The notes under the pieces are model-generated. The model had not been told where the DNA came from, did no database searches, and saw nothing but the letters and a program-made list of their open reading frames with translations. Made by a program: the position numbers and the translations under genes. 64,000 bases of DNA from Alphaproteobacteria bacterium (GTDB taxonomy: Bacteria; Pseudomonadota; Alphaproteobacteria; Ferrovibrionales; Ferrovibrionaceae): assembly GCA_017307375.1 (NCBI GenBank), contig JAFKFH010000012.1, forward strand, positions 1 to 64,000, written 5' to 3'. This document shows positions 53,658 through 58,800 of the stretch, in pieces (positions within the stretch are counted from its first letter, which is position 1; each line of letters begins with the position of its first letter).

Positions 53658-53673
53658 TGGCGCGGATATTGCA
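53658..53673 (+). promoter_or_regulatory. Sigma-54 promoter of nasT
   Basis: TGGCGCG (53658-53664), four bases, TTGCA (53669-53673), with GG and GC exactly 10 bases apart; one mismatch from TGGCACG-N4-TTGCA. The predicted start would be near 53684, only 8 bases before ATG 53692. A downstream ATG at 53704 would give a more usual leader. Confidence 0.68.
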
Positions 53674-53691: not shown

Positions 53692-54321
53692 ATGAGCAGA
53701 TCGATGCCGCCTGAGCAAAAGCGTCCCCCGCAGCCCCCCAAGGCCCTGCGCGTCCTGGTGGTCGACGACGAGGCCGAACGCGTCGCCGTGCTGCGCGACG
53801 GCCTGGCCGAAGCCGGCGCTGTCCTCGCCGGTGTCGCCCGGCCCGACGAAGACCTGACCGAGCGGATCGCGGAGTTGCGGCCCGACATGGTGGTCCTGGA
53901 CCTGAACGCGCCCAGCCGCGACATGCTGGAGGACGTGGCCGCGATCAACCGCGACCGGCCGTTGCCCATCGTCGTCTTCACCGGCGCCGAAGGGGCTGGC
54001 CTGATCACCGAGGCGATTGCTGCGGGCGTGTCGGCCTATGTCGTGGACGGGCTGGAACGCCATCGCGTCAAACCGGTCATCGAGGTCGCAATCGCGCGCT
54101 TCCGCGCCTTCGACAAGCTGCGCCGCGAGCTCGACACCGCGAAGGCGGCGTTGAGCGATCGCAAAGTCATCGAGCGTGCCAAGGGCATCCTGATGGAGCA
54201 GCGCGCGCTCAGCGAGGAAGACGCCTACAAAGCCCTGCGCAAGCTGGCCATGGACCAGAACAAGCGGCTGGTCGACGTGGCGGAAGGACTGATTACCTAC
54301 GCCTCGCTGCTCAAGGGCTGA
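53692..54321 (+). CDS. nasT: Nitrate-responsive antiterminator NasT (receiver plus ANTAR)
   Basis: 209 residues (205 if it starts at ATG 53704). Receiver-like domain about 18-135 with Asp25/Asp26 and Asp70 (VVLDLNAPS). Helical linker, then ANTAR domain (about 145-205): LSDRKVIERAKGILMEQRALSEEDAYKALRKLAMDQNKRLVDVAEGLI. NasT binds paired hexaloop hairpins in leader RNA and stops terminator formation; NasS holds it inactive without nitrate. The expected RNA target lies directly downstream. Confidence 0.93.
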   Translation: MSRSMPPEQKRPPQPPKALRVLVVDDEAERVAVLRDGLAEAGAVLAGVARPDEDLTERIAELRPDMVVLDLNAPSRDMLEDVAAINRDRPLPIVVFTGAEGAGLITEAIAAGVSAYVVDGLERHRVKPVIEVAIARFRAFDKLRRELDTAKAALSDRKVIERAKGILMEQRALSEEDAYKALRKLAMDQNKRLVDVAEGLITYASLLKG

Positions 54322-54436: not shown

Positions 54437-54452
54437 TGGCACGTCTTCTGCA
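54437..54452 (+). promoter_or_regulatory. Sigma-54 promoter of the nasS-nrt operon
   Basis: TGGCACG (54437-54443), TCTT, CTGCA (54448-54452): GG and GC are 10 bases apart and only one base differs from the consensus. Predicted start near 54463, leaving a leader of about 208 bases that contains both ANTAR hairpins and the terminator. NtrC control is likely, but I could not identify a convincing NtrC site upstream. Confidence 0.78.
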
Positions 54453-54501
54453 TTGCATCATGGGCAGCCGGTCAGGGCGTTTCCTCCCCCGACCGGCGGG
54501 C

Positions 54502-54567
54502 CGAACCAAAGGCGGTTCGACGGCGCGATTGCGAGCAACTTTAGGCGGGTCCGGCCAATGATGGCCG
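54502..54567 (+). promoter_or_regulatory. ANTAR/NasT antiterminator element: two hexaloop hairpins
   Basis: Hairpin 1: CGAACC (54502-54507), loop AAAGGC, GGTTCG (54514-54519). Hairpin 2: CGGCC (54552-54556), loop AATGAT, GGCCG (54563-54567). Both stems are perfect and both six-base loops have A at position 1 and G at position 4, the recognition rule of ANTAR proteins. They are 32 bases apart and 15 bases upstream of the terminator. Confidence 0.87.
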
Positions 54568-54582
54568 CCGATCCGCGGGACA

Positions 54583-54643
54583 AGGGCGTCCAGAGGTCGA
54601 TTGTCGGGATCCGACGATCGTATTTCTGGCGCCCTCTTTTTTT
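54583..54643 (+). terminator. Leader terminator controlling nasS-nrt
   Basis: An 11-bp outer stem pairs 54583-54594 (AGGGCGTCCAGA, one bulged T) with 54625-54635 (TCTGGCGCCCT). Inside it a 10-bp stem pairs CGATTGTCGG (54598-54607) with CCGACGATCG (54611-54620). The transcript then runs into seven T (54637-54643). It ends 27 bases before nasS, with no gene end before it, so it acts as an attenuator. Confidence 0.9.
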
Positions 54644-54670
54644 GGCTTTTCGGCAGGCGAGGCAAGACGG

Positions 54671-55798
54671 ATGGGTGGATCGGAGACGCTGAAACTGGGT
54701 TTCGTGCCGCTGGTCGATGCGGCACCGCTGGTCGTCGCCGAACAGCGGGGTTTCTTCGCCCGCCACGGCCTCGACGTCGTGCTGTCGCGCGAGCCGTCCT
54801 GGGCGACCGTGCGCGACAAGGTGTCGGTCGGCGTGCTCGACGGTGCCCATATGCTGGCGGCGATGCCGCTGGCCTCGGCGCTGGGCCTGACCGCATTCCC
54901 TGCGCCGCTGGTCTCGGGCGTGGTGCTGAACCGGGGCGGCAACAACATCACGGTTTCGGCCGAGCTGGGCCGGCAGATGCAGGAAGCCTCGCCCGGCCCG
55001 CGCGATGCGCTCAATTCGGGCCAGGGTCTGGCCCGTGTCATCGCCCGCCGTCGTCTGGCCGGCGCCCCGCCGCTGACTTTCGGTGTCACCTTTCCCTGGT
55101 CCTCGCACAACTATCTGCTGCGTGCCTGGCTGGTCGCTTCGGGGATCGACCCCGAACGCGACGTGCGCATCGCCGTGGTACCGCCGCCGCTGATGGTCGC
55201 CAAGCTCGCCGCCCGCCATCTCGACGGCTATTGCGTCGGCGAACCCTGGTGCCAGCGTGCTGCCGATCTTGGAATCGGCGCCGTGGTCGCCGCGACGGTC
55301 GAAATCCGCCCCGGCCATTTCGAGAAGGTCCTGGCCGTGCGCAAGGCCTGGGCGGACGAGCGGCCGGAAGTCCATCACGCCCTGATCGCCGCCGTCATCG
55401 AGGCGCAGGACTGGATCGACGATCCGGCCAACCGGGCCGAAGTCGCACGGCTGATGGTTGCCCATGCCTTTGTCGACGCGCCGGCCGAACTGGTCGAACG
55501 CGCGCTGGCCGGCCGCATCCTGACCACCGGCGACGGTGACGAGCGCGACGTCGTCGACTTCATCACCTTCGGCCGCAAGGCCTCGGGCCTGCCCCGCGTC
55601 ACCAATTCGGAATGGACGCTGGCTCAGATGCAGCGTTGGGGCCAGGCGTCACTCGATATCGACGTGCCGGCGATCATTGCCGCCACCTACCTGCCGCAGG
55701 CCTACGAGGCCGCGGCGCAATTGTTCGAGCGGCCGCCCAGTGCGGCCCCCGTTCCGACACAAGAAACCAGCGAGCAAGGAGCCTTCCGCCATGGCTAA
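54671..55798 (+). CDS. nasS: Cytoplasmic nitrate sensor NasS (NrtA-like)
   Basis: 375 residues. Starts directly with the binding-protein fold (MGGSETLKLGFVPLVDAAPLVVAEQRGFFARHGLDV), with no signal peptide, unlike the next gene. Other family parts: TFGVTFPWSSHNYLLRAWLVASGIDPERDVRIAVVPPPLMVAKLAARHLDGYCVGEPWCQRAADLG. NasS proteins are cytoplasmic NrtA relatives that bind nitrate and release NasT. Lying behind the leader, it would itself be induced by antitermination. An alternative is an accessory CmpA/NrtA binding protein. Confidence 0.83.
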   Translation: MGGSETLKLGFVPLVDAAPLVVAEQRGFFARHGLDVVLSREPSWATVRDKVSVGVLDGAHMLAAMPLASALGLTAFPAPLVSGVVLNRGGNNITVSAELGRQMQEASPGPRDALNSGQGLARVIARRRLAGAPPLTFGVTFPWSSHNYLLRAWLVASGIDPERDVRIAVVPPPLMVAKLAARHLDGYCVGEPWCQRAADLGIGAVVAATVEIRPGHFEKVLAVRKAWADERPEVHHALIAAVIEAQDWIDDPANRAEVARLMVAHAFVDAPAELVERALAGRILTTGDGDERDVVDFITFGRKASGLPRVTNSEWTLAQMQRWGQASLDIDVPAIIAATYLPQAYEAAAQLFERPPSAAPVPTQETSEQGAFRHG

Positions 55799-57080
55799 TA
55801 CCGTCATCCGCCGCCGCAGCTTCCTCAAGGGTGCCGCTGGCACGGCCGCCCTGTTCGCTGCCGCACGCGCGGCCCTGCCCGCCGGCGCCTTCGCCCAGGG
55901 TGCGGGACCCGAAACCAAGAAGGCCGTGCTCGGCTATATCGCGCTGACCGATGCGTCGCCGCTGATCATCGCCAAGGAAAAGGGTCTTTTCGCGAAATAC
56001 GGGATGCCCGACGTCGAGGTCGCCAAGCAGGCCTCGTGGGGAACCACGCGCGACAATATCGTGCTGGGCTCGGGCGGCGGCGGCATCGACGGCGCCCATA
56101 TCCTGACCCCGCTGCCCTACCTCATCTCCACCGGCAAGGTGACCCAGAACAACCAGCCGGTGCCGATGTATATCCTGGCGCGGCTGAACCTCGACGGTCA
56201 GGCCATCTCGGTCGCCAAGAACTGGCAGGCGACCGGCGCCCGGCTCGATGCCGCGCCGCTCAAGGATGCCTTCGCCAAGGCGATCGCTGCCGGCAAGGAG
56301 GTCAAGGCCGCGATGACCTTCCGCGGCGGCACCCATGACATGTGGATCCGCTACTGGCTGGCCGCCGGCGGTATCGACCCGGACAAGGATGTCCAGACCA
56401 TCGTCGTCCCGCCGCCGCAGATGGTGGCGAACATGAAGGTCGGGACAATGGACTGCTTCTGCGTCGGCGAACCGTGGAACGCCCAGCTGGTGAACCAGGG
56501 CATCGGCTATACCGCGCTGTCGACCGGCGAACTCTGGGCCAAGCACCCCGAGAAGAGCTTCGCGATGCGGGCCGACTGGGTCGACCAGAACCCAAAGGCG
56601 GCCGAGGCGCTGACGATGGCGGTGCAGGAAGCCCAGATCTGGTGCGACAAGCCGGAAAACGTCAAGGAGATGTGCGAGATCGTCGGCAAGCGCGCCTGGT
56701 TCAACGTGCCTGTAGCCGACATCGTCGGCCGCTCGTCCGGCGACATCAACTACGGCGACGGCCGCGAGGTGAAGAATTCGCCCCTGGTGATGAAGTTCTG
56801 GCGCGACCAAGCCTCCTACCCGTTCCAGAGCCACGAACTCTGGTTCCTGACCGAGAACATCCGTTGGGGCATCCTGCCCGGCGATTTCGACAGCGCAGGC
56901 CTCATCAAGAAGGTCAACCGCGAGGACATCTGGCGGGCCGCGGCCAAATCGATCGGCGTCGCCGATATCCCGGCCTCGACCTCGCGCGGCAAGGAGACCT
57001 TCTTCGACGGCAAGGTCTTCGATCCGGCGAACCCCAAAGCCTATCTCGACAGCCTGGCGATCAAGCGCGCCATCGCCTGA
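55791..57080 (+). CDS. nrtA: Nitrate ABC transporter substrate-binding protein, Tat signal
   Basis: 429 residues from MANTVIRRRSFLKGAAGTAALFAAARAALPAGAFAQ, a clear twin-arginine signal (RRRSFLKG). Binding-protein fold: LGYIALTDASPLIIAKEKGLFAKYGMPDVEV, MTFRGGTHDMWIRYWLAAGGIDPDKDVQTIVVPPPQMVANMKVGTMDCFCVGEPW. AAGGAG precedes the start, which lies inside the end of nasS (8 nt overlap). Periplasmic receptor for nitrate/nitrite. Confidence 0.93.
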   Translation: MANTVIRRRSFLKGAAGTAALFAAARAALPAGAFAQGAGPETKKAVLGYIALTDASPLIIAKEKGLFAKYGMPDVEVAKQASWGTTRDNIVLGSGGGGIDGAHILTPLPYLISTGKVTQNNQPVPMYILARLNLDGQAISVAKNWQATGARLDAAPLKDAFAKAIAAGKEVKAAMTFRGGTHDMWIRYWLAAGGIDPDKDVQTIVVPPPQMVANMKVGTMDCFCVGEPWNAQLVNQGIGYTALSTGELWAKHPEKSFAMRADWVDQNPKAAEALTMAVQEAQIWCDKPENVKEMCEIVGKRAWFNVPVADIVGRSSGDINYGDGREVKNSPLVMKFWRDQASYPFQSHELWFLTENIRWGILPGDFDSAGLIKKVNREDIWRAAAKSIGVADIPASTSRGKETFFDGKVFDPANPKAYLDSLAIKRAIA

Positions 57081-57103: not shown

Positions 57104-57988
57104 ATGTCGATGCCCGCCCGGAACTTCGAGACGCCGGCCGCTCCCGGTCGCAGCGCCACCCTGTTCGCACTGCCCCGCCGCCAGCCGGACGTTCTGCGCG
57201 ACCGGGTGAAGCCGATAGCCGTGGCGGCGGCGACCCGCCTGGTCCCGCCGCTGGTCATGCTGGCCGTACTGATCGCTATCTGGCAGCTGGCAGCGGGCTC
57301 GCCCACCTCCGCCCTGCCGTCGCCGACCAAGCTGGTCTCCGACAGCTGGGAACTGATCGCCCATCCGTTCTACGACCGCGGCGGGCTCGACAAGGGATTG
57401 TTCTGGCACATCTTCGCCAGCCTCCAGCGCGTGGCGCTCGGCTACGTGCTCGCAGCCGTCGCCGGCATCGCCCTCGGCGTGCTGATCGGGCAGAGCATCT
57501 GGGCGATGCGCGGCCTCGACCCGATCTTCCAGGTGCTGCGTACCGTGCCGCCGCTGGCCTGGCTGCCGATCTCGCTGGCCGCTTTTCGCGACGGCCAGCC
57601 CTCGGCGATCTTCGTCATCTTCATCACCGCGATCTGGCCGATCATCATCAATACCGCCGTCGGCGTGCGCAACATCCCCGAGGATTACCGCAACGTCGCC
57701 CGCGTCGTCCGGCTCGGCGGCCTCGAATATTTCGCCAAGATCATGCTGCCCGCCGCCGCCCCCTACATCTTCACCGGCCTGCGCATCGGCATCGGCCTGT
57801 CCTGGCTTGCCATCGTCGCCGCCGAGATGCTGATCGGCGGGGTCGGCATCGGGTTCTTCATCTGGGATGCCTGGAATTCGTCGCTGATCTCCGACATCGT
57901 CGTGGCCCTGGTCTATGTCGGCCTCGTCGGCTTCTGCCTCGACCGCCTGATCGCGCTGATCGGGCGTTTCGCCGCCCGCGCTGCCTGA
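57104..57988 (+). CDS. nrtB: Nitrate ABC transporter permease
   Basis: 294 residues from MSMPARNFETPAAPGRSAT; GGAAGGA lies upstream and longer readings run into nrtA. Six to seven helices; the EAA loop is RNVARVVRLGGLEYFAKIMLPAAAPYIFTGLRIGIGLSWLAIVAAEML, typical of the nitrate/taurine/sulfonate permease family. TVPPLAWLPISLAAFRDGQPSAIFVIFI is a second conserved part. Encoded 23 bases after nrtA and 14 before the ATPase. Confidence 0.93.
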   Translation: MSMPARNFETPAAPGRSATLFALPRRQPDVLRDRVKPIAVAAATRLVPPLVMLAVLIAIWQLAAGSPTSALPSPTKLVSDSWELIAHPFYDRGGLDKGLFWHIFASLQRVALGYVLAAVAGIALGVLIGQSIWAMRGLDPIFQVLRTVPPLAWLPISLAAFRDGQPSAIFVIFITAIWPIIINTAVGVRNIPEDYRNVARVVRLGGLEYFAKIMLPAAAPYIFTGLRIGIGLSWLAIVAAEMLIGGVGIGFFIWDAWNSSLISDIVVALVYVGLVGFCLDRLIALIGRFAARAA

Positions 57989-58002: not shown

Positions 58003-58800
58003 ATGAGCGACTATCTCGCCATCGACCATATCGACCAGGTGTTTCAGCGGGGCGCGGCGACCAGCGAAGTGCTGCGCGACGTCAGCTTGCGCATCGCCAA
58101 GGGCGAGTACATCTCGATCATCGGCCATTCCGGCTGTGGCAAGTCGACGCTGCTGAACATCGTGGCCGGCCTGCTGCGCGCGACCCGGGGCGGTGTGCTG
58201 CTCGAAGGCCGCGAGGTCAACGAGCCCGGCCCGGACCGGGCCGTGGTCTTCCAGAACCATTCGCTGCTGCCCTGGCTGACGGTCTACGACAATGTCAAGC
58301 TGGCCGTGGACAAGGTTTTCCGGGCCACTCGCAGCAAGTCCGAACGCCATGACTGGGTCATGCACAATCTCGATCTGGTGCAGATGGCGCATGCCCGCGA
58401 CAAGCGGCCGGGCGAGATATCCGGCGGCATGAAACAGCGCGTCGGCATCGCCCGTGCGCTGGCCATGGAGCCCAAGGTACTGCTGCTGGACGAGCCGTTC
58501 GGGGCACTGGACGCGCTGACGCGCGCCCATCTGCAGGATTCGGTCATGGAGATCCACCAGAAGCTCGGCAATACCGTCCTGATGATCACCCATGATGTCG
58601 ACGAAGCCGTGCTGCTGTCCGACCGCATCGTGATGATGACCAACGGCCCGGCCGCGACGATCGGCGAGATCCTCGAGGTGCCGCTCGATCGCCCCCGGCG
58701 GCGGCTCGACCTGGCCGCCGACCCGGTCTATATCCGCTGCCGCTCGGCCGTGCTGGAATTCCTCTACGCCCGCCACCGCGCCCCGACACTGGCGGCCTGA
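58003..58800 (+). CDS. nrtD: Nitrate ABC transporter ATP-binding protein
   Basis: 265 residues. Walker A GHSGCGKST, signature ISGGMKQRVGIARAL, Walker B LLLDEPFGALD, His loop ITHDVDEAVLLSDRIVMMTNGP. Lacks the binding-protein-like extension of NrtC, so it is of NrtD type. Last gene of the operon behind the ANTAR leader; nitrate and nitrite reductases are not in the window. Confidence 0.92.
   Translation: MSDYLAIDHIDQVFQRGAATSEVLRDVSLRIAKGEYISIIGHSGCGKSTLLNIVAGLLRATRGGVLLEGREVNEPGPDRAVVFQNHSLLPWLTVYDNVKLAVDKVFRATRSKSERHDWVMHNLDLVQMAHARDKRPGEISGGMKQRVGIARALAMEPKVLLLDEPFGALDALTRAHLQDSVMEIHQKLGNTVLMITHDVDEAVLLSDRIVMMTNGPAATIGEILEVPLDRPRRRLDLAADPVYIRCRSAVLEFLYARHRAPTLAA

Follow-up and report, generated by a model that had tools for sequence, protein, structure and literature searches.

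The leader between nasT and nasS, at positions 54437-54670 of the window (the whole 64,000-nucleotide stretch of DNA that was analysed), raises the question of how a transcription attenuator could switch when two of its hairpins lie 32 bases apart and the second has no visible base in common with the terminator. A first-pass annotation had described this leader as a complete ANTAR attenuator with two hexaloop hairpins, and had suggested that its switch may depart from the textbook overlap.

Reader protein, operon and promoters

The genes on either side of the leader and the predicted promoters are as follows.

53658-53673, + strand: candidate sigma-54 site of the nasT gene, TGGCGCGGATATTGCA (one mismatch to consensus)
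53692-54321, + strand: nasT, response-regulator receiver plus ANTAR RNA-binding domain (Pfam PF00072, PF03861, 75.5 bits)
54437-54452, + strand: sigma-54 -24/-12 promoter TGGCACGTCTTCTGCA (consensus match; same place in most relatives)
54671-55798, + strand: nasS, NrtA-like nitrate sensor (PF13379, 261 bits)
55791-57080, + strand: nrtA, exported nitrate-binding protein (PF13379, 354 bits; twin-arginine signal RRRSFLKG)
57104-57988, + strand: nrtB, permease of a nitrate ABC transporter (above the TIGR01183 cut-off, at 333 bits)
58003-58800, + strand: nrtC/D, ATPase of a nitrate ABC transporter (above the TIGR01184 cut-off, at 357 bits)

NasT combines a receiver with an ANTAR domain, and the gene for its partner NasS adjoins. 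Alignment of NasT to EutV (6wsh), Rv1626 (1s8n) and NasR (4akk) showed that the positions of EutV Tyr164 and Met172, the residues holding the RNA loop (PMC8934654), are kept. No NCBIfam model scored above its cut-off for NasT or NasS, and the two were therefore named from Pfam, gene order and the alignment with EutV and NasR. NasS was found to be without a signal peptide (N-terminus MGGSETLKLGFVPL). The first-pass annotation had placed nasT just upstream of the leader and nasS after it, as was found here, and its reading of the leader as an ANTAR/NasT attenuator before a nitrate operon is borne out by the protein families, by the kept nasT-leader-nasS/nrtA order and by the conserved, covarying hairpins described below. 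The gene after the leader was examined in 59 loci: NasS comes first in at least 26, a lower bound because the following gene was unrecognised by pattern in 23 of the 59, and NrtA comes first in 10. The same genome encodes a second ANTAR protein (L002, C41:37613-37771, minus strand), which adjoins a periplasmic-type amide/branched-chain amino-acid binding protein and a nitrilase-like gene and is AmiR-like by layout.

The sigma-54 promoter that had been proposed ahead of the hairpins is present. The sequence TGGCACG-N5-TGCA has GG and GC at -24 and -12 with the right spacing and is the sole exact match to TGGCACGNNNNNTGCW in 64 kb, in which 6 one-mismatch matches were found against 3.2 expected; the predicted transcription start lies near 54463. 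The nasT-proximal site is weak taken alone, and similar sites precede nasT in two related loci (L013 and L015).

Hairpins and terminator of the leader

A hairpin search of the whole leader for six-base loops with A first and G at position 4 (A1/G4) identified three hairpins, P1 to P3. These are listed with the other structures of the leader.

54467-54497, + strand: 5' hairpin GCCGGTC/GACCGGC (fold)
54502-54519, + strand: P1, hexaloop hairpin CGAACC[AAAGGC]GGTTCG (hairpin search; covariation in relatives)
54552-54567, + strand: P2, hexaloop hairpin CGGCC[AATGAT]GGCCG (hairpin search; covariation)
54578-54591, + strand: P3, antiterminator hexaloop hairpin GGAC[AAGGGC]GTCC (hairpin search; invariant or nearly so in relatives)
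54583-54635, + strand: intrinsic terminator stem (fold -38.2 kcal/mol; inner stem found by scan)
54637-54643, + strand: T7 tract of the terminator (read from sequence)

P1 and P2 are the two hairpins of the first-pass annotation, which had also given their 32-base spacing correctly; its inventory was not complete, the third A1/G4 hexaloop hairpin having been missed. P3 starts 10 bases past P2 and has a stem of its own of just 4 bp. It folds when the RNA stops short of a full terminator; in the full-length fold it is hidden, since there the terminator wins and takes up its 3' half. A plain MFE fold as sole guide was rejected, since it displays the terminator, conceals P3 and so leads to the same omission. 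In the fold, the P2 stem can be extended to 54545-54576 and the P2 loop can form an A-U pair that leaves a tetraloop. Lying downstream of the predicted start site and ahead of P1, the 5' hairpin has a strong 7-bp stem and a 17-nt apical region; it has no A1/G4 hexaloop, and no counterpart was seen in the aligned relatives. When both strands of the window were searched, no second stretch with three such hairpins was found.

The terminator consists of an outer stem of 6+8 pairs and an inner stem of 10, with two small bulges, so that the nested terminator and T7 tail described earlier stand and the count of 11+10 bp does not. Its 5' arm has 9 nt in common with P3 (54583-54591), and the last hairpin overlaps an intrinsic terminator by 5-10 nt in all 59 leaders tested, that of the window included. 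The overlap at P3 is thus the textbook one, and a new switching principle is not needed. The earlier suggestion to the contrary arose because the middle hairpin had been taken for the second of the pair, and the 32-base gap is large because P1 is an extra, upstream hairpin.

In the literature an ANTAR site is defined by two hairpins (PMC3369931, PMC8164766, PMC7496416). P2 and P3, and also P1, are small hairpins of at least 3 bp with six-base A1/G4 loops. The 10 nt between P2 and P3 fall within the 5-12 nt of the E. faecalis eut leaders (PMC3369931) and the 2-25 nt of an actinobacterial survey; the 32 nt between P1 and P2 lie outside these ranges. As a complete dual motif is contained in it, the leader, with three hairpins in place of exactly two, was classed as a variant of the ANTAR target RNA.

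Conservation in related leaders

Scanning named genomes with NasT yielded 68 loci, and further ones came from scans at family and class level. P3 could be anchored as the last hairpin in 59 leaders, the window's among them, and the hairpin at this position is almost always GGAC[AAYGGC or AACGAC]GTCC. The nasT-adjacent alphaproteobacterial leaders (n = 64; Reyranella, Enhydrobacter, Skermanella, Azospirillum and others) comprise 51 triples, 8 with P1 and P3 and a different middle hairpin, and 5 with P2 and P3 only (for example L004, L005, L034 and L102). The three-hairpin layout therefore recurs in many related bacteria. In the P1+P3 leaders (L008-L013, L015, L080) the middle hairpin has no hexaloop or has a G at loop position 1; an ordinary hairpin replaces P2 in L008, L012 and L015. 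Some types assigned by script were relabelled by hand: L101 and L058 became triples, internal mismatches having hidden P1 (checked by eye), L013, with middle loop GATGCA, was moved from 'triple' to P1+P3, and L047 ('dual_far') was dropped as no leader.

The first and second gaps are 30 and 4 nt in L101, which has one of the two closest NasT proteins (56%), 31 and 7 nt in L100 and L117, 26-29 and 12 nt in Skermanella, and 11-19 and 3-10 nt in the Reyranella types; P2-P3 spacing in relatives is 3-12 nt overall. On the NasT tree the leader types are scattered over several deep branches with few changes, the deep forks being poorly supported. Four A1/G4 hexaloop hairpins were seen in one leader, that of Azospirillum sp. 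TSO22-1 (L037), 322-438 bases after nasT.

Thirty non-redundant leaders were aligned with MAFFT, with the three loops in register. RNAalifold, supplied with no structure, returned exactly P1, P2 and P3 from this alignment; 95.8% of alignment cells were paired, compared with 25-49% in slid-partner controls, and double-change cells numbered 64 versus 13.7 in shuffles. P1 and P2 show strong covariation. In P1 the C-G closing pairs, A1, A2 and G4 are invariant and 4 of the 6 pairs carry compensatory changes; in the P2 loop of the triples, A1 and G4 are kept in 29/30 and 30/30. P3 shows little variation, in keeping with a sequence that would have to serve the terminator as well. The first-pass annotation would have been abandoned had close relatives lacked the hairpins; they are conserved and covarying.

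A loop-blind control was run because the alignment rows had been chosen with A1/G4 in mind. All hairpins of at least 5 bp in the 85 nt before P3 were collected from 42 non-redundant leaders. Six-base loops were found in 70 of the 78 hairpins upstream of P3, compared with 1008 of 5261 (19%) elsewhere in the same loci, and 61 of these 70 hexaloops had both A1 and G4, against a background of 134 in 1008 (13%).

A covariance model built from the 30 leaders, in which the window scores 47 bits by construction as one of the 30 rows, gave matches in 21 genomes of an alphaproteobacterial sample of 387 and in 40 of a proteobacterial sample of 397, the two samples overlapping. Outside the Alphaproteobacteria, triples precede narK-type transporters (L163, L164, L166, L168, L179) and nrtA (L167), and the dual form occurs in Pseudomonas-like and enteric-like matches, group labels here being guessed from gene content. 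In L148, L149 and L151, P1 and P3 are far apart and the middle hairpin has another loop or a G1 hexaloop.

The window's own genome holds a second NasT-type site (28 bits; contig C12, ~276,100-276,365; L191 2106-2365), before nirB and a nitrate-reductase-like gene. It has a sigma-54 sequence TGGCACGTCGCTTGCTA, a P1 AAGCCC[AACGGC]GGGCTT and a P2 GCGGACT[GATGGC]GGTTCGC whose loop begins with G, and no T-tract terminator was found at the site. Within this P2, CTGATGGC is the complement of GCCATCAG, which immediately precedes the start codon (ATG) of a short leader ORF ending next to nirB; this leader is possibly a translational ANTAR switch. Other weak R1 matches in this genome (E above 2) were set aside; the two inspected, L127 and L129, are without T-tract terminators and look like chance.

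Proposed mechanism and comparison with known systems

Very probably the leader is an attenuator of the ANTAR (NasT) type, with three hexaloop hairpins, that controls transcription in response to nitrate. The switch itself is well supported by anatomy and homology; the added role of the third hairpin is inferred. Transcription would start at the sigma-54 promoter under nitrogen limitation, presumably via NtrC. Without nitrate, NasT would be held by NasS, P3 would be taken into the terminator, and transcription would halt before nasS. With nitrate, NasT would be freed by NasS, as is known from Paracoccus; NasT dimers may then bind each hexaloop as it is transcribed, first P1 and next P2, before moving on to P3 or joining there; P3, when held by NasT, would be unavailable to the terminator, so that nasS-nrtABC would be transcribed. 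P2 and P3 would form the canonical pair. The third hexaloop is most likely a second NasT recruitment hairpin: P1 may give a longer time or a higher local NasT concentration before P3 appears. As nasS lies behind the switch and nasT ahead of it, NasT would raise its own antagonist, and this negative feedback could damp the response. Certain features speak against the three-hairpin reading. The P1-P2 gap exceeds the linker tolerated by EutV, for which 14 nt already impairs action (PMC3369931) and an added 20 nt abolishes it (PMC8934654), and P1 may therefore act differently; the P2 loop may close to a tetraloop and the P3 stem is short; and the ordinary hairpin found at the place of P2 in three leaders indicates that the P2 hexaloop is dispensable there.

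It is rather unlikely that P2 and P3 alone act, as an ordinary dual switch, with P1 a remnant or neutral motif copy. The canonical P2-P3 spacing here and in relatives would fit, as would the leaders and the Pseudomonas-like and enteric-like matches that have this pair only, but a neutral copy would decay, and P1 retains its invariant closing pair and loop bases together with compensatory changes. It appears improbable that P1 works together with P3 as the functional pair, P2 being a structural spacer by which the long linker is folded away: eight leaders and the three matches with distant P1 and P3 have such an arrangement, but a pure spacer needs neither A1 nor G4, and both are kept in the P2 loop of the triples. 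We consider it very unlikely that the array chiefly titrates NasT, as a sponge or feedback on free NasT, instead of raising antitermination efficiency; the EutX sponge RNA is known to carry additional single hexaloops (PMC8934654), but a sponge needs no terminator and these leaders are always in cis with one that overlaps P3. Chance hairpins in a GC-rich leader can be dismissed, for although the window's density of 4-bp A1/G4 hexaloop hairpins is about 0.23 per 200 nt, three or more within a 143-nt stretch were reached in only 6 of 20,000 dinucleotide shuffles, and conservation, covariation and the loop-blind test refute this origin.

More broadly, and tentatively, arrays of three hexaloops, or of four as in L037, could be a general, selected variant of the ANTAR attenuator, in which several NasT dimers load sequentially or cooperatively and the array sets the threshold or steepness of the response to nitrate. 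These leaders bear on the unsettled question of how two hexaloops are used by a single ANTAR dimer. Crystal data indicate that one dimer cannot contact both hexaloops simultaneously, and Walshe et al. proposed successive binding, to a recruitment hairpin and then to an antitermination hairpin (PMC8934654). Natural leaders with two, three or four hexaloops, or with an ordinary middle hairpin, form a ready series for testing this model; they also suggest that two-hairpin covariance searches undercount the sites per leader.

No match was found in the window at Rfam gathering scores, so no existing family names the element. The cis-regulatory narK RNA (RF03032) aligns over model positions 1-72 and scores 18.0 bits, below the gathering score of 43.2, and by this cut-off the leader is not a member. 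The RF03032 consensus has a sigma-54 -24/-12 element, a GGcagCC[AACGGC]GGcugCC hairpin and CGAC[AAAGAC]GUCG; to judge from these motifs it looks like a sigma-54 promoter with an unnamed dual ANTAR site. Only the first hairpin is paired in that model and a third is absent, whereas the window has three. A search of freely accessible papers found no three-hexaloop attenuator, and novelty is not certain.

Among characterised systems, NasS/NasT of Paracoccus nasABGHC and Bradyrhizobium nos/nas likewise have NasT acting on a hairpin leader with NasS as antagonist (PMC3795266, PMC5424462, PMC6759348), and nitrate releases NasT from NasS to act on nas leaders (PMC3795266, PMC5424462). The Paracoccus leader comes after nasS, in a locus where nasT and nasS share a transcript, whereas the present one lies between the two genes. 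EutX/Rli55 RNA also joins a dual motif to an extra single hexaloop (PMC8934654), but it is a trans-acting sponge and the window's leader an attenuator before a structural operon. The closest likeness is to the dual-hexaloop ANTAR RNAs of E. faecalis eut, K. oxytoca nasF and P. aeruginosa amiE (PMC3369931, PMC8934654, PMC7496416), with which the leader shares small C-G-closed stems and A1/G4 hexaloops (the C-G closing pair, A1 and G4 being also the NasR SELEX consensus; PMC7496416), a last hairpin that excludes an intrinsic terminator, an adjacent cognate ANTAR gene and a nitrogen-related operon. It differs from them in its three hairpins and long first gap. What is not textbook here is the conserved third hexaloop, which makes the leader a variant of the known ANTAR attenuator with three hexaloops.
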